The translations under genes and the position numbers were made by a program. The notes below the pieces were generated by a model that ran no database searches, was not told where the DNA came from, and saw only the letters and a program-made list of their open reading frames with translations. DNA of 64,000 nt from Ruminococcus sp. HUN007 (GTDB taxonomy: Bacteria; Bacillota; Clostridia; Oscillospirales; Ruminococcaceae). Positions 5,192 to 21,697 of this stretch are shown here, piece by piece. Every line of letters starts with the position of its first letter. The stretch's first letter is position 1. Location: contig NZ_JOOA01000002.1 of assembly GCF_000712055.1 (NCBI RefSeq), positions 806,001-870,000 on the forward strand, in the 5' to 3' direction.

Positions 5192-5274
5192 AGTTTAAGC
5201 TTTTCATCCTCTATCGGTTTTGAATCAAAATATCTTTCGGAATATCTTTCCTTTGCAAGTTCAAGAAATGTCAT
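5192..5274 (-). pseudogene. Nitroreductase 5' fragment (duplicate of the gene at 16334-16849)
   Basis: The first ~27 codons, beginning MTFLELAKERYSERYFDSKP, almost match the start of the intact nitroreductase (16767-16849). Homology ends abruptly at 5192. Upstream sequence including the AGGAGG ribosome site is also conserved. This is the first piece of a duplicated mosaic spanning 5192-5658. Confidence 0.85.
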
Positions 5275-5295
5275 TGTGTTTTCCTCCTGTTATAT

Positions 5296-5334
5296 TCATA
5301 CCTGTATTCCTGTGAAAATTACTGCATCCGGCAT
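5296..5334 (-). pseudogene. 12-codon stub of the T4-Pnk-like kinase gene
   Basis: Reads MPDAVIFTGIQV then TGA. The first 11 residues equal the N-terminus of the intact kinase encoded at 23305-23754. The same stub precedes the intact nitroreductase at 16871-16909. It lies 21 bases upstream of the nitroreductase fragment, so the truncated kinase start has become a short leader-like frame. Confidence 0.75.
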
Positions 5335-5371
5335 AATTACACCTTTATGATCGATCATTTTTTTTCAACTG

Positions 5372-5377
5372 CGAGAT
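5372..5377. other. Unoccupied target site of the 16952-20219 transposon
   Basis: CGAGAT occurs once here in a context (CAACTG before, ATCTCTCAGAGG after) that matches the left flank at 16940-16951 and the right flank at 20220-20240 of the transposon. The transposon therefore duplicated these six bases on insertion. Confidence 0.85.
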
Positions 5378-5396
5378 ATCTCTCAGAGGTTTCTAG

Positions 5397-5506
5397 GGAA
5401 ACGCTGATTTATTCATAAATCAGCGTGGGGCTCCGGGGCGAAGCCCCCGCAAATCCCACCTTCGGAAATCCGGCTTCGCCGGATTTCCGATTTAATCAGT
5501 GTTTCC
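5397..5506. repeat. Palindromic mini-element, copy B, with CTAG target duplication
   Basis: 110 bp, same hairpin plan as copy A. It is flanked by CTAG at 5393-5396 and 5507-5510. The paralogous sequence at 20239-20250 reads TTTCTAGGTTATT without the element, so a single CTAG was duplicated on insertion. It lies at the 3' end of the decayed AlbA_2-type gene copy. Confidence 0.9.
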
Positions 5507-5511
5507 CTAGG

Positions 5512-5658
5512 TTATTATTTTATTGATATATACTTCTGATACTTACTATTCGGTTTTTCAGGTAATGTCATTGAAAGTTGACCTTTCTCTAACAAGCTTC
5601 TTTACCGTAAATATCTACAATTCTCGGTACACCTCGTCCGGACATCTCACTTATATGC
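5512..5658 (-). pseudogene. Internally deleted 3' end of an AlbA_2/Schlafen-type gene
   Basis: Nearly identical to the 3' end of the intact gene at 20249-21697, but 271 bp corresponding to roughly 20335-20605 are missing. The deletion endpoints in the intact copy are two 7-bp AAGCTTC repeats, and one of them remains at the junction (5594-5600). Homology stops at 5658 (equivalent to 20663). Between 5659 and the deacetylase promoter I see only AT-rich sequence. Confidence 0.85.
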
Positions 5659-8537: not shown

Positions 8538-8598
8538 AATAACTATTCAGAAACTATTTAATTCGAGAGATTTCAGAAAAGGAACTCATAACACAAGC

Positions 8599-8628
8599 AA
8601 CCCCTCCTCAGTTTTCAGAGGAGGGGTT
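8599..8628 (+). terminator. Rho-independent terminator
   Basis: AACCCCTCCTC / GAGGAGGGGTT, 8-base loop, followed by a T/A-rich tail. Confidence 0.85.
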
Positions 8629-9261
8629 TATATATTCGAAATATAATTTTTTTGAAACATGATAAATCCGTTATTAATACTGATAAGCAGTTCCTACAGC
8701 TTCACGTATATTGCAGACTGTTTTACAGTATTTCACAAAACAAAAGCGAATTGATCAAATAATGGCCAACTCGCTCTGAATAACTTGTATAAACCGCGTA
8801 AATGCGATCTTTGAGTAAAGAAATAATTATCTCTTTGAGTCGTGTTGAATGATTCTCATAATATCTCACAACTTCTCGTAACTAACGCAAATACGGAATT
8901 TTAATTAGTTAAAAAGCATTTAAACCTTTTCTATTATATCATAATTTATTCTATCTTACAATAACTTTGTTGCACTTTTGATGCACAAATCGGTAATCTA
9001 ACATCGGCGTATCCTTGCATATAACCATCGGTGGAAAGGCTCTTTTCACTGATGGTTTTTTTTCTTTTCAGCTTATTAACAGCATTCTTATTTTAAGTGT
9101 GAGTTAAGATTCTTTTAATACACATAAATCTGGATATCTGTTTCAGCATTCTATTCAAGAAAAATGTTCCTCAACAATGGATTTTAGCTGTGTTGAAATC
9201 TCAGAAAAACTCTTGTTCAGATCGAGAGTACGAACGGTTCATTTAAGTGATATTTATGTTT
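8629..9261. other. Gene-free AT-rich interval
   Basis: No supportable gene. A second plus-strand terminator-like hairpin lies at 9023-9066 (AACCATCGGTG / CACTGATGGTT followed by eight T), with no intact plus-strand gene upstream of it. It is probably the tail of a lost gene. Confidence 0.6.
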
Positions 9262-14410: not shown

Positions 14411-16280
14411 GATTAGAGCGTCAAAACAGCGATTTTGACTTTTCAAAATTCCAATAGAATCTTGAAAATTTAATATTATTACAAATTATGGATATATCGA
14501 AACGTAAATCTCAATATTTAGTAGCTTTCCTTACTCATTTTTCAGGCTATTACCGCATTTTGGACGCGGCATGCCGAGCCTTGCATGAATTTGCAAAACT
14601 TCTGGATGTTCATAGCAGTTACTTTAGCTCCAAAGAATAGTTTCTTTCGAATCATACCTCTTGCCGGTATTTTGTCAACATGATATTTTCTTCGAAGAAT
14701 GGATGGAAGGGATTCAACACCATTTCGGAATTTAGTTAAGTCACTAAATTCTTTTGTAGAACGTTTTCTCTGCTGCTGAGCTCTGTTTTTACTTTTTAAT
14801 GAGACTGTTTTCTTACAAACCTTTACTCTCAAGTTAGGTTTACATTCATTAAAGTGTGGACAGTTTTCGCACTTTTTTTTATCGAAGGATGCTACGCACT
14901 GCCCTGTCTTTTTATTGTAGCTGCAGCTTATTGGTTCATGTCCTCCGGGGCACTTTAAGATCTGTGTTCCGTCTTCACTGAATTCAAAATCAGCATTGAT
15001 ATCTGGTGTTTCTTTACCAGTAAGATTAGTGTTTACAATTTCAATGTTTTTTGATTTTGCTAATGCTTCATCAGCTGTATATGCACCGTCAGCTACTATT
15101 ACTGTGCGGTCGTCTTCCGGCTGAGAATTCATTCTTTCCATTGCATCATTGATGAATTTCTTATCACTGTAATTGTTTGCTTCAAACTGAAAATCAGTTA
15201 CAAGCGTATCACCGTTTTCATTTGATGATTCTACTAAATTTGCAGCGTATCCTATATGATTTTTACCTGCTTTATGGCGAAATGTTGCTTCCGGATCCGC
15301 AGGATTCTGAAGTATTGAAGAATCCATACTTGAATCGTCTGCATCTTTAAGCTGACGGATTCCGTTAGGATATATGTTAGTCTGCTCATTGAGAAAGCGT
15401 ACCAGCAATTTATATGCACTGCTGTCTTCAATATCTTCATCACACAGGTTCATCAGAATTTTTGCATCTTCAAGAATAGTTACAATCTTGCTATCAACAG
15501 ATTCACTACGATTATGATATACTACTTTATTTCTGTCATCTACATCAGCATAATGCAAGTATTCCGAAGGCACTTCTGCATTACTGCGTTTCATCTCTTT
15601 TACAAGGTTTGAAACACATGTATAAAGCAGTTCGAGACGCGACATTTTTTTCACATTTGCAGATATCATCATACTATCCATACGTTTAAGATGATGATCT
15701 ATTCCCATAACAAGCGCCATAACATCTGTTATTTCTTTTTCCGTATTTTGTATGAGATCTATTCCTGTTTCAATTTCATACATTGCTAATCTTTCACGAA
15801 ATCTTCCAAGACTTCTGTCGCTAAGGGGCTGTTCATCAAATGATGTTGTGTGAAGTGCATACTGATATCTTATGTCAAACAGCAATGATTCAAGAAATTC
15901 ATCATCGGACTGTCCTGTTAGCTGCTGAATGAATATTGCGCCTACGAGAACGTTTACCGGAGTATTTGGACGCGATATTTTTTCGCTGTAAAGAACCGCA
16001 TACGGTGTTTCATCTATTGCAGGAAATACTTTTTCAGCAAATACTTTTGCCCATGATTTTTCTAAAAATCTGCGTTCTCTTTCTGTTAAATTCAGCGTGG
16101 AATCGAACATTGACATTTGTTCATTCCTTAAATCGTTTGCTACGAATGACATTTCTTTTTCCTCCGAAATTTGATACTTCTATTGTACCATATTTCGCGT
16201 TTTCATTTGTTGTAATAATATTAAATTTTCAAGATGCTTTTGTTGGCTCAGATAGGTCTTACCCTTTTGACGCCCGAATC
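14411..16280. mobile_element. IS1182-type insertion sequence, complete, with 8-bp target duplication
   Basis: 1870 bp. Terminal inverted repeats are GATT-agaGCGTCAAAA on the left and TTTTGACGCccg-AATC on the right. Flanking direct repeats ATAGTTAT lie at 14403-14410 and 16281-16288. A second inverted motif (ATCTTGAAAATTTAATATTA) lies inside both ends. One intact transposase gene. Both ends, the duplication and the open frame suggest a recent insertion. Confidence 0.85.
14542..16152 (-). CDS. IS1182 family DDE transposase
   Basis: 536 aa, full length. N-terminal DUF772-like region (PNTPVNVLVGAIFIQQLTGQSDDEFLE) and the central DDE catalytic fold: Asp in VIVADGAYTADEAL and a downstream Glu in the C-terminal part. 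A zinc-finger-like cluster CENCPHFNECKP lies near residue 430, as in other IS1182 transposases. Only gene of the element at 14411-16280. Its own upstream region lies inside the inverted repeat. Confidence 0.9.
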   Translation of the reverse strand: MSFVANDLRNEQMSMFDSTLNLTERERRFLEKSWAKVFAEKVFPAIDETPYAVLYSEKISRPNTPVNVLVGAIFIQQLTGQSDDEFLESLLFDIRYQYALHTTSFDEQPLSDRSLGRFRERLAMYEIETGIDLIQNTEKEITDVMALVMGIDHHLKRMDSMMISANVKKMSRLELLYTCVSNLVKEMKRSNAEVPSEYLHYADVDDRNKVVYHNRSESVDSKIVTILEDAKILMNLCDEDIEDSSAYKLLVRFLNEQTNIYPNGIRQLKDADDSSMDSSILQNPADPEATFRHKAGKNHIGYAANLVESSNENGDTLVTDFQFEANNYSDKKFINDAMERMNSQPEDDRTVIVADGAYTADEALAKSKNIEIVNTNLTGKETPDINADFEFSEDGTQILKCPGGHEPISCSYNKKTGQCVASFDKKKCENCPHFNECKPNLRVKVCKKTVSLKSKNRAQQQRKRSTKEFSDLTKFRNGVESLPSILRRKYHVDKIPARGMIRKKLFFGAKVTAMNIQKFCKFMQGSACRVQNAVIA

Positions 16281-16333: not shown

Positions 16334-16849
16334 TCAGATGTAGATAACTGTATCCTCAAGCGGTTTCTTATCTGAATGAAGCTTTGCAGGGTGACTGTCT
16401 GCAGACGGATAGCCCAGGGCTACCATCATTGCAGGAACATGATTTTCCGGCAGATCAAAGGCTTTTCTTACATCGTCTGAATTGAATCCGCGTATCCATA
16501 AACTGTGAACGCCGAGTTCTGTTGCCTCAAACATCATGTGAAGTGCAACGGAACTTGCATCCTGCTCTCCGCAGTTATATCCTTCTTCACGAGGATTGTG
16601 CCATACTTCATCACTGTCGTAGCAAACAAGAAGTACCAGCGGGCATCCGGAAAGTGAAGCTTTTGTGCTTATCGCCTTTTTCTTCGCCTCTTCGCTCTTG
16701 ATAACATATATCCTCTGCGGCTGATAGTTACATCCCGTAGGTGCGAGCCTTCCGGCTTCAAGGATGAGTTTAAGCTTTTCATCCTCTACCGGCTTTGAAT
16801 CAAAATATCTTTCTGAGAATCTTTCCTTTGCAAGTTCAAGAAATGTCAT
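16334..16849 (-). CDS. Nitroreductase family protein
   Basis: 171 aa. FMN-binding nitroreductase fold: ERFSERYFDSKPVEDEKL at the N-terminus, LAPTGCNYQPQRIYVI near residue 36 (FMN phosphate contact), and a C-terminal VALGYPS motif. These enzymes use NAD(P)H to reduce nitroaromatics, quinones or flavins; the physiological substrate is unknown. AGGAGG ribosome site 9 bases before ATG. Immediately upstream is a 12-codon relic of a kinase start (16871-16909). A truncated duplicate of its 5' end lies at 5192-5274. Confidence 0.9.
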   Translation of the reverse strand: MTFLELAKERFSERYFDSKPVEDEKLKLILEAGRLAPTGCNYQPQRIYVIKSEEAKKKAISTKASLSGCPLVLLVCYDSDEVWHNPREEGYNCGEQDASSVALHMMFEATELGVHSLWIRGFNSDDVRKAFDLPENHVPAMMVALGYPSADSHPAKLHSDKKPLEDTVIYI

Positions 16850-16870
16850 TGTGTTTTCCTCCTGTTATAT

Positions 16871-16909
16871 TCATACCTGTATTCCTGTGAAAATTACTGC
16901 ATCCGGCAT
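16871..16909 (-). pseudogene. 12-codon stub of the T4-Pnk-like kinase gene
   Basis: MPDAVIFTGIQV then stop, identical in 11 residues to the start of the kinase at 23305-23754. The TGA lies 21 bases before the nitroreductase ATG. It may be translated as a leader, because the kinase start codon context is partly kept. Confidence 0.75.
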
Positions 16910-17139
16910 AATTACACCTTTATGATCGATCATTTTTTTCAACTGCGAGATTGTTACCGACCACCCATAATGTCGTCCAATAGGCACTGTATCTTGTCAC
17001 GCAGGCAACAGTTCTGTCAAGGGAAATGTACAAGATTCTGGAAAGTCAGTCCTGCAACTGCGGCCCAGACACGGAATGCTCACGGGAAAACCAACGCGAT
17101 AAACCCATCCTTCGGGCACGCGGTAACAAATAATAGAAA

Positions 17140-17190
17140 ACGGCATCGTTCCGATTCGAATTTCGGGATGATGCCGTCTGTGTTTTTATC
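17140..17190 (+). terminator. Terminator-like hairpin at the left end of the transposon
   Basis: ACGGCATCGTTCC / GGGATGATGCCGT followed by CTGTGTTTTTA. Could insulate the transposase operon from transcription entering from outside. Confidence 0.65.
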
Positions 17191-17236
17191 TATAAAAATG
17201 ATATAATAATTGTATTAACCTTTAGAAAGGAATAAA

Positions 17237-17284
17237 CGATAGCTGTTTTGATCGTCATAACTCGCAATTATGACACAGCTATCG
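17237..17284 (+). promoter_or_regulatory. Bipartite 5'-UTR hairpin before the zinc-ribbon gene
   Basis: Outer stem CGATAGCTGT / ACAGCTATCG (10 bp), a 7-base 5' bulge, inner stem GTCATAA / TTATGAC and loop CTCGCAA. An AAAGGA ribosome-like site lies before it and the ATG lies 11 bases after it, so folding could control translation. The ACTCGCA loop is shared with the 39-base repeats at 6672, 6835 and 8244. Confidence 0.6.
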
Positions 17285-17294
17285 TCCCTCAACA

Positions 17295-17795
17295 ATGAAA
17301 AGTATATCATTTTTTCGTGAAAAAGTCAAGGACGGAATCGTCGAAATTACAGGAACAAATTCACCTGTTTGTCCAATTTGCGGCAAACCAATGAAGTCAC
17401 ACGGAAGGTGCAGACGGTATCTGCGCGTATCCGGCGAAGAGCGAATCACTCTGTCTCTCAGAGTTTTCTACTGCCCGGAATGCGACCGTTATCACCGCGA
17501 GCTTCCGGATTACGTTGCTCCTTACAAACATCTCAGTACTGAAATAATAGCTGAAATATATGATGGTCTTGACAACTATGATGTTGATGACAGCACGATA
17601 ATACGCATCCGAAACTGGGTAAGAAAGTTCCTGAATTTTGGTTCTGCGACTGTCAGAAGACTTAAAATTGAGCATCCTGCACTGGTCGTCAGAAGCAGTT
17701 TTGAATCAACATTTGACACGCTCACCTATTTTGTCAGAATAGTCGTAAATTCCAATGAATGGAAGTTCATTAGTTCGCCTGTCATTTCAGTCTGA
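17295..17795 (+). CDS. DUF6431-type zinc-ribbon protein of the transposon
   Basis: 166 aa. Two Cys pairs form a zinc ribbon: CPICGKP (near residue 27) and FYCPECDRYHRELPDY (near residue 57), then a helical region resembling a helix-turn-helix (IAEIYDGL..., DDSTIIRIRNWVRKFL). Proteins of this kind occur next to DDE transposase/ATPase pairs in clostridia. A role in target or end binding is an inference. It is the first gene of the operon, 42 bases before the transposase. Confidence 0.65.
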   Translation: MKSISFFREKVKDGIVEITGTNSPVCPICGKPMKSHGRCRRYLRVSGEERITLSLRVFYCPECDRYHRELPDYVAPYKHLSTEIIAEIYDGLDNYDVDDSTIIRIRNWVRKFLNFGSATVRRLKIEHPALVVRSSFESTFDTLTYFVRIVVNSNEWKFISSPVISV

Positions 17796-17837
17796 CCTGT
17801 ACTATGATAGAGATATCAACTACAAGGAGGTACCTCT

Positions 17838-19173
17838 ATGGACATGAAAAATCAGAAACTGGCAAAAGAGATAGCTGAACAGCGTGTGATCATGATAGCG
17901 CCACTGCTTGATACCACTCTGTCTCAGGATGAGTATTACGGCAAGCGCCGGGAATTAGCTGATACGTTTGAAGTATCAACAAGAACACTCCAGCGCTATG
18001 TGGATGCGTATAACGGAAATGGAATCGACGGATTAAAACCCAAAGGGAAAGTACCGGAACAGAATACCGTGATCACTAAGGAGATCCTGGAAGAGGCAAT
18101 CCGTCTGCGCCGTGAAGTTCCGTCACGAAGCGTCCCTACCATCATCCAGATACTTGAACTTGAAAACAAGGTCGAAGTTGGCATGCTGAAACGAACGACG
18201 CTTCAGCGTGCACTATCAAGGGCGGGTTATTCATCTCAGATGATGAAGACCTATCAGGATCATGGATACGGTTCACAGCGTTTTGCCAGAGTTCATCGCT
18301 GTGACTTGTGGCAGGGAGACCTGAAATACGGACCAACGCTGACTATCGACGGAAAGCCGCAGCCAACGTACATGTCGTGTCTGATTGACGATGCAACACG
18401 TTACATTGTTCATGCTGAGTTTTTATGGAGATATGGAGCAGAGCATTGTTGAGGATACACTGAAGAAAGGCATTCAGAAATTTGGACTTCCCCGTCGTAT
18501 CTACTTCGACAACGGTTCACAGTATCGTACCCAATGGATGAAGCGTGCATGCAGTCTTCTGAGTATTAAACTGCTGTATGCTAAACCGCGTAATCCTCAG
18601 GGTAAAGGAAAACAGGAACGCTTCAACCATACCGTTGACTCGTTCATTGAAGAGGTAAACCTGAACCGTCCTGACAGCATAGAAGAACTGAACAGACTGT
18701 TTAACGCCTGGCTCTCTGAATGTTACCACAGTAAAATACACAGTGCACTCGGAATAACCCCGGAACAGGCATTCAAATGCGATTCCATGCCATTACGCTA
18801 TCCGGATGATGCAATACTCTCAACTGCTTTCCTGCACTGTGAAACCCGTAAAGTTAACAAGTCAGGATGTATCAGCTTCATGGGTAAAGATTATGATGTT
18901 GGCGTTCTTTATGCCGGACAGCAGGTGGATGTTGTTTATGATCCTCAGAATATTGCACGTGTAAGGATTGAAGCAAAGAATCATGAACCGTTTTACGCTG
19001 AACCGGCTAAGGTAGGTACACACGTTGCTAAAAAACCGAAACGTGCTGAAATTGAAAGTATCCCAGCGGATTCTTCAAGACTTCTTGATGCTGTTACAAA
19101 GAGCGCCGGGGAAAAGGAACGTCGAGCTATTATTTCGTATTCACAGGTATTGGAGGGTGCTGAAAATGTTTGA
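17838..19173 (+). pseudogene. rve-type DDE transposase, frameshifted at a T run
   Basis: Frames 17838-18452 and 18385-19173 join into one ~444-aa transposase. It has N-terminal helix-turn-helix domains (FEVSTRTLQRYVDAYNGNG) and an integrase core with the first Asp in WQGDLKYG, the second in IYFDNGSQY and a Glu in GKGKQERFNHT, followed by a beta-barrel-like C-terminus. The break is one extra T in TTTTT at 18420-18424; with four T the reading is AEFYGDMEQS. The shift needed is +1, not the -1 shift used by many insertion sequences, so programmed frameshifting is unlikely. Ribosome site AAGGAGG upstream. Confidence 0.85.
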
Positions 19174-19978
19174 AATGTTTTATGGTATGCAGCATACACC
19201 GTTTACGCGCGGTATTCCATCTGATCAGCTGCACAGAACACATCAGAATACTGAAGTTTTCAGTCGTCTGATCATCACTGCACAGAAACAGTCATTCGCA
19301 CTGCTGATTGGTGAACCAGGTACCGGCAAGACAAGTACACTTCGTCGTTTAAAGGATGAACTTCCTGAATCAGAGTACATGGTTCTGTACGTTTCTGATT
19401 CAAAACTGACTCCGCGAAGCTTCTACAACTATCTCCTGAACCAGCTCGGATGCAAATCCGAATTTCATCGCAATGCAGCGAGAAACGCTTTGCATAAGCA
19501 GATTGAAATAATGAGGAATATGCAGAAACGTAAAGTGGTCGTGATTCTTGACGAAGCACATCTGTTGCCAAAAGAAATGCTTGAAGAGGCCCGCTTTCTT
19601 CTGAATTACAAAATGGATTCCGAAAATCCAATGGCACTAATACTTTCGGGTCAGACTGAACTCTGGGACAAACTCCGTCTTTCCGCATACAGAGCCATTC
19701 TTGAAAGAGTAGATGTTGAATGCTTTCTTACTCCTATGGATTTTTCAGAAACCAAGCAGTACATTGAATCACAGCTTCATTATGCCGGACAGGAAAATCC
19801 TGTCTTCACTGAAGATGCAATGAAATCTATTTTTACTTTTTCAGGCGGAAATCCACGACTCGTAAACCGTGCCTGCAGTCAGTCACTTATCTATGGTGCA
19901 CAGATGAAACAGACCTGTATCGACAGCAAATCTGTAGATATTGTACTTGAAAACGAAGTAACCGGAGCCGGTCACTGA
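19166..19978 (+). CDS. AAA ATPase of the transposon (TniB/TnsC/ExeA-like)
   Basis: 270 aa. Start chosen at 19166: it overlaps the transposase stop by 8 bases and follows TGGAGGG. Walker A (LLIGEPGTGKTSTL, residues about 44-57), Walker B (VVVILDEAHLLP, about 127-138) and a sensor-1 region (MALILSGQTELW) are intact. C-terminal part FTFSGGNPRLVNRAC is typical of ExeA/TniB-like ATPases. In Tn7-like and Tn5053-like systems this subunit binds ATP on DNA and directs the transposase to a target. Intact while its transposase partner is frameshifted. Confidence 0.9.
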   Translation: MFEMFYGMQHTPFTRGIPSDQLHRTHQNTEVFSRLIITAQKQSFALLIGEPGTGKTSTLRRLKDELPESEYMVLYVSDSKLTPRSFYNYLLNQLGCKSEFHRNAARNALHKQIEIMRNMQKRKVVVILDEAHLLPKEMLEEARFLLNYKMDSENPMALILSGQTELWDKLRLSAYRAILERVDVECFLTPMDFSETKQYIESQLHYAGQENPVFTEDAMKSIFTFSGGNPRLVNRACSQSLIYGAQMKQTCIDSKSVDIVLENEVTGAGH

Positions 19979-20104
19979 TTATCTGATGTTGCGGTTCAAC
20001 TTGATTAACGGGCTTTTGCCCACAATGGAGGATAGGGCAACGCTGGGGAGCGACCTGAGCGCCATGTGGGATTTTGCCGAGAGCATAGCTCTCTAGATTG
20101 AAAT

Positions 20105-20140
20105 TGACACCTCCGTGCTGGGGGTGTCAGTTTGTTTTTC
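20105..20140 (+). terminator. Terminator of the transposon operon
   Basis: TGACACC / GGTGTCA hairpin followed by GTTTGTTTTT, just inside the right-end transposase-site array. The 120 bases before it contain another short hairpin (GAGAGC-ATA-GCTCTC at about 20080) of unknown role. Confidence 0.7.
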
Positions 20141-20248
20141 CAATTCAGTTGACAAAATACTGTCCCTGCCCTGACAAAATACATTCACTTTTGGATGACA
20201 GGATAGGTGGGCGCTAACACGAGATATCTCTCAGAGGTTTCTAGGTTA

Positions 20249-21697
20249 TTATTTTATCGATATATACTTCTGATACTTACTATTCGGTTTTTCAGGTAAT
20301 GTCATTGAAAGTTGACCTTTCTCTAACAAGCTTCGAATATATTTTGAAGCAGTTTTTCGCTCCTTAACTCCCAAATAGTCAGCAATTTCTCTTGTGCTTC
20401 TTGCCGTTTTACAGTAATCAAGTATTTGTTTCTCAATTTGATTTCTGATATTCGAACCAGAATTTTCATTGCTTGTTTCTATAGTAGTATCTTGAGTAGC
20501 ATCTTGGGTAGCATCTTGGGTAGCATCTTGGGTATTACTACCCAAGTCAAGACGATCAAAAGGAATTGTGACAACTATTGCGTTATCTCTGAATTCAAAA
20601 GCTTCTTTACCGTAAATATCTACAATTCTCGGTACACCTCGTCCGGACATCTCACTTATATGCAGCTGAAGAAATATTTCAGAAAGCTTGTCATTGACCG
20701 GAACAGAAATCCCGGCAAAAAATCCGTCTTTTGTCTGGTTGGACGGTAAAGTCCCAAGCGAAGTGATCTCTATTCTATCCTTATATGCATGAAATTTAGG
20801 GGCTGAACCACTTGTCCACAAATTATGCTGAAAGGCATTGATCACTGCTTCCATAAACGCATTTTGATTAAAAAGCCGTACTTCTTTCCGCTCAACTCTC
20901 CTGTCTCTTTCATCTGCCTGCGGAACATTTATGGTATCACCATAATCGATAACCTTTTCAAGAGCCAATAGCAAACACATATTACCGAAATCACGAACGG
21001 CATACATAGTCGAACTTTTATCATTACCATTGAACAAGGCAAATCTTATAGGTATATGAGGAGTGTCAGACAGAAGTTGTGCCAGCATATTGTATTTTCC
21101 GGTAGGTGTCAGGAGTTCAAGATTCTTTTTAAAGGTTTCTTCTCTTAACCTGATACCTTTCATATCATAGTAAAGAAATAACTGCTCAAATGTCAGATCA
21201 GTATATCTTGACTCTATATTCAATAAAGTTGGCGGACCATAGTTCAGATAACTGAAAAGAGCTGCTTCACGGTCAGGATGCTTCTTGATATTTTCTTTAC
21301 TCGATCCAATTCTTATATATCGAACTTCCTTATATTCAGTAGGAACAATTCTTGCAGCCGGAATAATGAGAACAACCACACGTTTTCCTTCTATTTCTTC
21401 TTCACAAAATCTGAAATAAATCGCAGGAGTCAGATTTCGGCTCAGATAATGCTGGAAAGGCTCATTGTTTATGTCCTTGTTATAATTAAATTTCGTATCA
21501 GTAAACTCATGTGTCACATTATGAATGCCCCAAATCAGGTATCCGAAAGGTTCATGTGCCATAACCGCTGCATTGGATAACGCTGCAATATACTCACCTA
21601 TATCATCAGGCTTATTCAGATTTTCCTTAAATTCAAACCATTCTGCTTCATCACCGTGAGAAATACATCGATTGACAATATCAGAAACTTCTCTCAT
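20249..21697 (-). CDS. AlbA_2/Schlafen-type ATP-binding protein with winged-helix C-terminus
   Basis: 482 aa. N-terminal AlbA_2 domain (EWFEFKENLNKPDDIGEYIAALSNA at residues about 19-43, then GYLIWGI), as in many DNA- or RNA-binding accessory proteins. Middle region has a GHKL-like ATP-binding part: AVINAFQHN near residue 285 and GRGVPRIVDIYG near residue 355. It ends in a winged helix (REIADYLGVKERKTASKYI). A Thr-Gln-Asp-Ala repeat linker (TQDATQDATQDATQD) is encoded by 12-bp tandem repeats. Function unproven; the family is often on mobile or defence islands. An internally deleted copy is at 5512-5658. Confidence 0.75.
   Translation of the reverse strand: MREVSDIVNRCISHGDEAEWFEFKENLNKPDDIGEYIAALSNAAVMAHEPFGYLIWGIHNVTHEFTDTKFNYNKDINNEPFQHYLSRNLTPAIYFRFCEEEIEGKRVVVLIIPAARIVPTEYKEVRYIRIGSSKENIKKHPDREAALFSYLNYGPPTLLNIESRYTDLTFEQLFLYYDMKGIRLREETFKKNLELLTPTGKYNMLAQLLSDTPHIPIRFALFNGNDKSSTMYAVRDFGNMCLLLALEKVIDYGDTINVPQADERDRRVERKEVRLFNQNAFMEAVINAFQHNLWTSGSAPKFHAYKDRIEITSLGTLPSNQTKDGFFAGISVPVNDKLSEIFLQLHISEMSGRGVPRIVDIYGKEAFEFRDNAIVVTIPFDRLDLGSNTQDATQDATQDATQDTTIETSNENSGSNIRNQIEKQILDYCKTARSTREIADYLGVKERKTASKYIRSLLEKGQLSMTLPEKPNSKYQKYISIK
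20488..20535. repeat. Four 12-bp tandem repeats inside the AlbA_2 gene
   Basis: Units AGCATCTTGGGT at 20500, 20512 and 20524 are identical; the first unit at 20488 has two changes. They encode DATQ on the minus strand, so copy-number change would lengthen or shorten the linker without a frameshift. Confidence 0.9.

Follow-up and report, generated by a model that had tools for sequence, protein, structure and literature searches.

A three-gene transposon of Ruminococcus that probably holds, as permuted halves, an apparently undescribed RNA carried whole by several kinds of Bacillota transposon

We analysed a stretch of 64,000 nucleotides from Ruminococcus sp. HUN007 (NZ_JOOA01000002.1, positions 806,001-870,000), called the window below. 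Its + strand holds a 3268-bp transposon at 16952..20219, one of six copies with identical ends, between two target duplications CGAGAT (16946..16951 and 20220..20225) read directly in the sequence. Three genes were recognised from the list of open reading frames (ORFs) and Pfam, all on the + strand: a DUF6431 zinc-ribbon protein of 166 residues (17295..17795), a DDE transposase (17838..19173), whose frame is seen on copy comparison to be broken here into ORFs 17838-18452 and 18385-19173, and an AAA+ (AAA_22) ATPase of 270 residues (19166..19978). We consider it probable from the sequence that this is a recently active DUF6431/DDE/AAA+ transposon of ~3.27 kb, related to IS21 and TnsB, present in six copies and bearing permuted halves of a conserved RNA that occurs whole across Bacillota within IS256, IS3, IS21, IS110 and IS240-like elements.

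The original prediction had set the edges at 16952 and 20219 between CGAGAT flanks, and both are read at these positions, with terminal sequences TGTTACCG at 16952 and CGCTAACA at 20219 of the TGTTA..TAACA type. The left end (16952..17026) consists of the inverted repeat and TGTC repeats, and the right end (20141..20219), by comparison with relatives, of TGACA repeats and the inverted repeat. The internal empty site that had been claimed was likewise borne out: flank comparison places its single CGAGAT at 5372..5377, the left flank being alignable over 186 bp at 96.8% and ending exactly at 16951. On the right, 26 bp at 100% are followed by an insertion of ~109 bp peculiar to the duplicate, then by 94 bp at 98.9% and, with a stretch lacking, by 65 bp at 100%. 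Six copies at ~100% identity were found in the own genome, and 6/6 start and stop at identical bases, none with homology past 16952 or 20219 in the alignment. Each has a target duplication, of 6 bp in three copies and of 5 bp in the other three (TATAAG, CGAGAT, GTACA, ATTAT, GCATTC and CTAAG). The six-copy alignment contains three variable columns only: a change that disrupts DUF6431 in a single copy, another that disrupts the transposase frame in two copies, that of the window among them, and a substitution. Because the copies are so nearly identical, movement must have been recent. The further copies that the prediction had called for, sharing both ends and bordered by duplications of 5-6 bp, are thus the remainder of these six, plus two relatives, L021 (GCCAAG, 6 bp) and L020 (CATAT, 5 bp). 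The relative L018 has ends of the TGTTA..TAACA type with no duplication seen, and the others are not delimited at both ends; the distant element L105 has a candidate inverted repeat spanning 3658 bp, without duplication.

The predicted gene content was confirmed by Pfam (DUF6431 1.1e-19 and AAA_22 1.2e-25 in the window; rve 3.7e-13 and Mu-transpos_C 8e-10 for the intact 444-residue transposase of copy L004), with the correction that a one-base length difference breaks the transposase frame in 2/6 copies, including that of the window; it is intact in 4/6. The assignment to a Tn7/Tn552-like type stood only in part. By sequence, the solved structure nearest to the transposase is the IS21-family IstA of IS5376 (1.4e-9), followed by TnsB (8.7e-6). 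The best NCBIfam model is IS481 (170 bits, cut-off 224), with IS21 at 46.2 bits (cut-off 160); by these cut-offs the transposase is a member of neither family. IS481 is a one-gene element. The ATPase passes the Pfam TniB cut-off (27.3 against 22.4 bits) and reaches 16.2 bits with NCBIfam IstB (cut-off 200); IstB_IS21 is not listed among the Pfam matches of the element's ORFs. Among the scanned element ORFs of at least 50 residues, DUF6431, DDE and AAA only were called, with no TniQ, TnsA or resolvase, nor was TniQ/TnsD found among the element's ORFs. Elements of the Tn7/Tn5053/Tn552 type are marked by TniQ/TnsD, or by a resolvase with a res site. The window element resembles them in its DDE and AAA+ pair (TniB over the Pfam cut-off), TGT..ACA ends and repeated end motifs, and is set apart in having no TniQ, TnsA or resolvase among its ORFs. 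With IS21 (IS5376) it shares a DDE transposase with a Mu-type C-terminal domain and an AAA+ helper; it differs in its AAA_22 ATPase, which is not called IstB, its extra DUF6431 gene and its transposase score under the IS21 cut-off. IS21 ends carry multiple repeats (PMC10122671), as do those of the window transposon. Judged by sequence, then, the lineage is related to IS21 and Tn7 (TnsB-type) elements; likeness to Tn552, compared by class features, was not established.

The same gene order, DUF6431 - DDE - AAA_22 ATPase, occurs in L122 (45% transposase identity), L126/L105 (30%) and L121 (25%). Near relatives are few: 2/198 relatives at E ≤ 1e-20 and 6/396 genomes of the family at E ≤ 1e-30, with the own genome counted in both. 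Contigs of GTDB gave eight relative loci, in metagenome-assembled genomes of Oscillospiraceae/Ruminococcus plus one Ruminococcus albus contig; these contigs are often cut. In L018, L020 and L021 an extra small gene (66 to 113 residues as the ORF caller lists it) lies between the ATPase and the conserved block at the right end. It is without counterpart in the window copy, and that of L018 has no Pfam match. The prediction of a little-described mobile element also held, DUF6431 being scarcely present in the literature searched; a sequence search with DUF6431 gave only matches of E 0.07 or worse. Right about the edges and the three genes, the prediction missed the conserved non-coding blocks and this fourth small gene of the relatives. 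The kind of transposon is already known, and the novelty lies in the RNA.

A conserved non-coding block 3' of the ATPase gene surfaced on comparison with the relatives. It is the 5' half of the RNA, described here by a covariance model, R1, built from 21 sequences including that of the window. R1 scores the window at 83.4 bits and finds there the 5' module with hairpins P1, P2 and P3, which is so by construction; since the window is in the model, independent support for the RNA comes from pattern and model matches in other genomes. By the rule used, 26/43 loci with the 5' module have a 3' module (GGAAAAC..GCG.TAAAC) no more than 260 bases further on, and several of the remaining 17 show a degenerate or cut 3' module by eye. 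In the 21-sequence alignment, 11/17 pairs have changes on both sides (0/500 shuffles). Covariation there is 0.281, against 0.142 in shuffles (0/500), and sliding the partners gives no more than 0.145; for the number of pair types, 49/500 shuffles do as well. When 53 distinct sequences are aligned to the model, 14/17 pairs are double-changed (13/500 shuffles) and covariation is 0.608 against 0.203 (0/500), slid partners giving at most 0.100; this second alignment is biased towards the model, and counts of this kind are inflated by relatedness. At one pair G-U is as frequent as G-C (20 and 20 of 53), which is what an RNA should show. In whole copies, strand A of the 5' half forms a duplex of -18.8 kcal/mol on average with its own strand C of the 3' half, against -10.9 with strand C of other copies, and the own strand C is among the best three partners in 22/25. 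The best-conserved bases lie outside the A/B hairpin, which has a run of U after it in several of the whole copies, and the variable parts are the paired stems. A promoter-like site lies upstream in 15/26 whole copies by a loose rule that is also satisfied by up to 25% of the shuffles of a copy, and a near-consensus promoter (at most one -35 mismatch, 17-base spacer) in 8/26.

At gathering score, searches of 15 sources with Rfam 15 turned up nothing but a 5S rRNA and a tRNA in L039; lax thresholds gave only noise. In the literature searched, which covered few subscription papers, we recognised no description of this RNA. It is apparently undescribed, although it may prove identical to the 'Transposase-resistance' motif, a published structured motif near transposases (PMC2864571). 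Another motif of this sort, the mobile/repeat candidate MRSC-65-2, is described as a single long stem (PMC11109978), unlike the present RNA. Within the RNA itself, a pseudoknot GGGUUU/AAACCC was considered and dropped, as copies with GTTCT instead pair it to AGAAC. A base triple, in which GCUUUU changes to GCUCUU together with GUUCU/AGAAC, is an idea only, prompted by two clean cases in the strict set of sequences.

A degenerate pattern of the RNA core with at most 2 mismatches occurs in 14/394 genomes of the order (reversed control 0), and R1 at E ≤ 1e-4 matches 25/391 genomes of the class and 66/398 of the phylum Bacillota, within which all sampling for R1 was done; each count includes the own genome. 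There, R1 at E ≤ 1 finds only the six transposon copies. Among 67 loci (66 places, L128 and L158 being the same), 36 match transposase queries: IS256 15, IS21 6, IS3 5, IS30 4, IS110 3, DDE/ATPase 2 and IS240-like 1. The other 31 match no query; Pfam adds L129 (DUF772, DDE_Tnp_1_2) and L087 (AAA_22). These carrier counts are biased and are lower bounds, because the queries represent families already encountered, and most loci extend only 1.5 kb to either side. Adjacency does not mean containment; L072 appears to have its RNA just beyond the IS256 element. The RNA lies within delimited IS256 elements of G1358 (1549 bp, exact 8-bp duplication in 3/4 copies) and G1503 (1504 bp, 8-9 bp duplication in 2/2, end shifted by 1-2), within an IS21 element of G814 (about 2910 bp, 6 bp duplication with the end shifted by 1 in 2/3) and within an IS240-like element of the same genome (2034 bp, 8 bp duplication in 1/2). 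For IS3 (G1428, G1145) and IS110 (G1282), containment was judged by where copy identity stops, the duplications being weak or absent. The place of the RNA relative to the transposase gene varies: it is on the opposite strand past the 3' end in IS256 and IS3, upstream in the same direction in IS110 L049 and IS30 L046, between istA and istB in L095, and downstream in the same direction in L093 and L105.

Two generalisations about the carriers were tried and given up. That all belong to circle-forming families is not strictly so, as L129 carries a DUF772/DDE_Tnp_1_2 transposase, which we take to be IS1182-like. DUF6618 is no universal protein partner, PF20323 being present in only 4/39 RNA-bearing genomes; DUF6618 genes stand directly before the RNA in L105 (3548-3907) and L106 (2207-2527), and elsewhere in the same IS21 element in L095 (3891-4223). 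Named plasmid records gave one weak 39-base match to the RNA and named phage records none; of a whole IS256 carrier searched against plasmids, the transposase part alone matched. The core pattern occurs in 5 viral contigs: on inspection by eye, the RNA goes no further than the pattern in L026, L028 and L030, and one and the same degenerate copy is present in L027 and L029, in a prophage-like context. The 3' pattern occurs in 63 viral contigs, most without the 5' module (R1 lies just upstream in the right order in 4/63), and a longer 3' pattern in 0.

In the window, both halves of the RNA lie on the + strand in permuted order. The 5' half (GCUUUU, the P1 core and the A/B hairpin at 20079-20093) is at the right end, 20011..20093, located by R1, in which the window is 1 of 21 sequences. 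The 3' half, strand C plus GGGAAAACC..GCGATAAACC, is at the left end, 17076..17107, located by pattern and conservation. The 3' module pattern derived from whole copies has a single match in the window, at 17085-17104 inside the left end (0 expected), and the 3' module thus stands at the opposite end of the element instead of in line. Each half is followed on the same strand by a terminator-like hairpin (17140..17177, a consensus match, with 4 in the region against 2.6 in shuffles, and 20101..20133). Among 16 stretches compared between the window, L018, L020 and L021, the 3' half (mean identity 0.91), 5' core (0.88) and A/B hairpin (0.93) are the best conserved, above a leader hairpin (0.81), DDE (0.74), ATPase (0.73), DUF6431 (0.66) and the left and right end repeats (0.75 and 0.72). 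In each of L018, L020 and L021, 0/2000 shuffles equal the stability of the pairing between right-end strand A and left-end strand C, and L020 differs from the others on both strands yet keeps the pairing. The distant DUF6431/DDE/ATPase element L105 carries the RNA whole, after its ATPase and DUF6618 genes, as does L084 by eye, and for this reason the split looks derived.

Since the RNA is split and permuted, one molecule could carry it whole only across joined ends. Joining of the right end to the left, as a circle or a tandem, would give such a molecule, and we tentatively propose that in the window's lineage the whole RNA arises in this way alone. Several observations weigh against this. Strand C itself is poorly conserved (0.65 among the four elements), and in the window copy the A/C pairing is weak, with 78/2000 shuffles as stable, so that the cross-end constraint rests on L018, L020 and L021. 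Both halves are found in these three of the eight relative loci, with the right half only in L022 and L025, the left only in L023 and L024 and neither in L019, on contigs that are often cut. The terminator-like hairpins would limit a transcript across the junction, and no promoter-like site lies just before the 5' half. The hairpins, the single-half loci and the weak window pairing would fit halves that are no longer joined, in which case the 5' half would work alone, as a structured 3' terminus to the operon mRNA, and the left half would be a separate element or relic. We regard this as a genuine possibility without expecting it, as both halves are better conserved than the genes and the pairing persists in three relatives, with a compensated difference in one. 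Assembly in trans of two transcripts, one from each end, would agree with the complementary ends and with a terminator hairpin after each half; no promoter-like site precedes the left half inside the element, so transcription from outside would be needed, and we think this unlikely.

Two further explanations concern the whole RNA. Its location inside mobile elements, near the ends in several, and the nature of A and C as inverted repeats would suit a structure acting as DNA, with hairpins or subterminal repeats bound by the transposase. The equal use of G-U and G-C at one pair, the near-consensus promoters just upstream and the presence of the same structure with different transposases speak against this, and we rate it as very unlikely. 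That the RNA is a cis-acting insulator or terminator shielding the transposase gene from outside transcription would account for the U run after the A/B hairpin; it is improbable given the varied place and direction of the RNA among carriers and the location of its best-conserved bases outside the hairpin. The same variation in place and direction led us to infer a trans-acting accessory RNA instead. It would be a small accessory whose service to the transposon depends on a feature shared by its hosts rather than on a particular kind of transposase; that it acts in trans and is bound by a host factor is a plausible guess that falls short of being probable. The parts, copies, conservation and covariation are shown by computation; transcription, circles and a phenotype are hypothetical. 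Taken as a whole, the proposal of an undescribed RNA shared by many kinds of Bacillota transposon (inside six, beside eight), which in the DUF6431 lineage would be whole only on joined ends, its synthesis reporting or requiring departure of the transposon from its site, is rather doubtful.

To our knowledge, the transposon RNAs described so far (bridge RNA, omega RNA and the IS10 antisense RNA) are each tied to one protein family. Bridge RNA is confined to IS110 elements, which form minicircles, and has guide loops. It resembles the present RNA as a non-coding RNA inside an insertion sequence, and two IS110 elements (L049 and that of G1282) carry the present RNA. Identity with bridge RNA, to which L049 had pointed, was excluded, as other families (IS256, IS3, IS21, IS240-like) carry the same RNA; moreover, it lies downstream of the transposase on the opposite strand in G1282, and its variable parts are paired stems, unlike guide loops. 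An RNA common to IS256, IS3, IS21, IS30, IS110, IS240-like and DUF6431 transposons suggests a function of use to transposons in general. Such a function might be exerted by way of a host factor, or of the circular intermediate shared by IS3, IS30, IS21 and IS256, which form minicircles by copy-out/paste-in (PMC3299598). The split, permuted RNA gene makes the idea of a circular intermediate directly testable. The novelty would drop if the 'Transposase-resistance' motif proved identical to this RNA.

Some minor observations concern rearranged copies. In L090 (1389-1575, also L103 3136-3322) two RNA copies face each other: one of them bears in its loop a fused IS21-type end along with the RNA of that end, a possible route for transposon ends to enter the RNA. 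L093 (3463-3782) is a solo RNA-bearing unit of 320 bp and has the identical sequence of the right-hand part of that genome's IS240-like element. The L021 transposon is inserted in an IS256 gene that is itself accompanied by a divergent RNA copy (8596-8668, - strand, 30.5 bits). Around the window transposon, the empty site stems from a segmental duplication (window 5192-5658 against 16767-16951 plus 20220-20663), and the ~109-bp insertion inside the duplicate, which also lacks one stretch, spans about 5398-5506 (GGGAAACGCTGAT../..ATCAGTGTTTCCC); an end similar to that of this insertion, GCGTTTCCC, adjoins the L005 insertion. The joined target sites of 3/6 copies (L002, L003, L005) lie in inverted repeats or hairpin-like sequence. 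A solo left-end match of 56 bp at 84% identity (L007, G000:C1:73483-73538) is perhaps the remnant of an older member. Adjoining the transposon, a 536-residue transposase-like ORF (14542-16152, - strand) is presumably IS1182-like. Finally, the leader hairpin 5' of DUF6431 (17236..17285, + strand; z -4.2 for 17225-17300) has counterparts in L018 and L021, and an in-frame upstream ATG within its stem in L018 suggests that DUF6431 may be under translational control.

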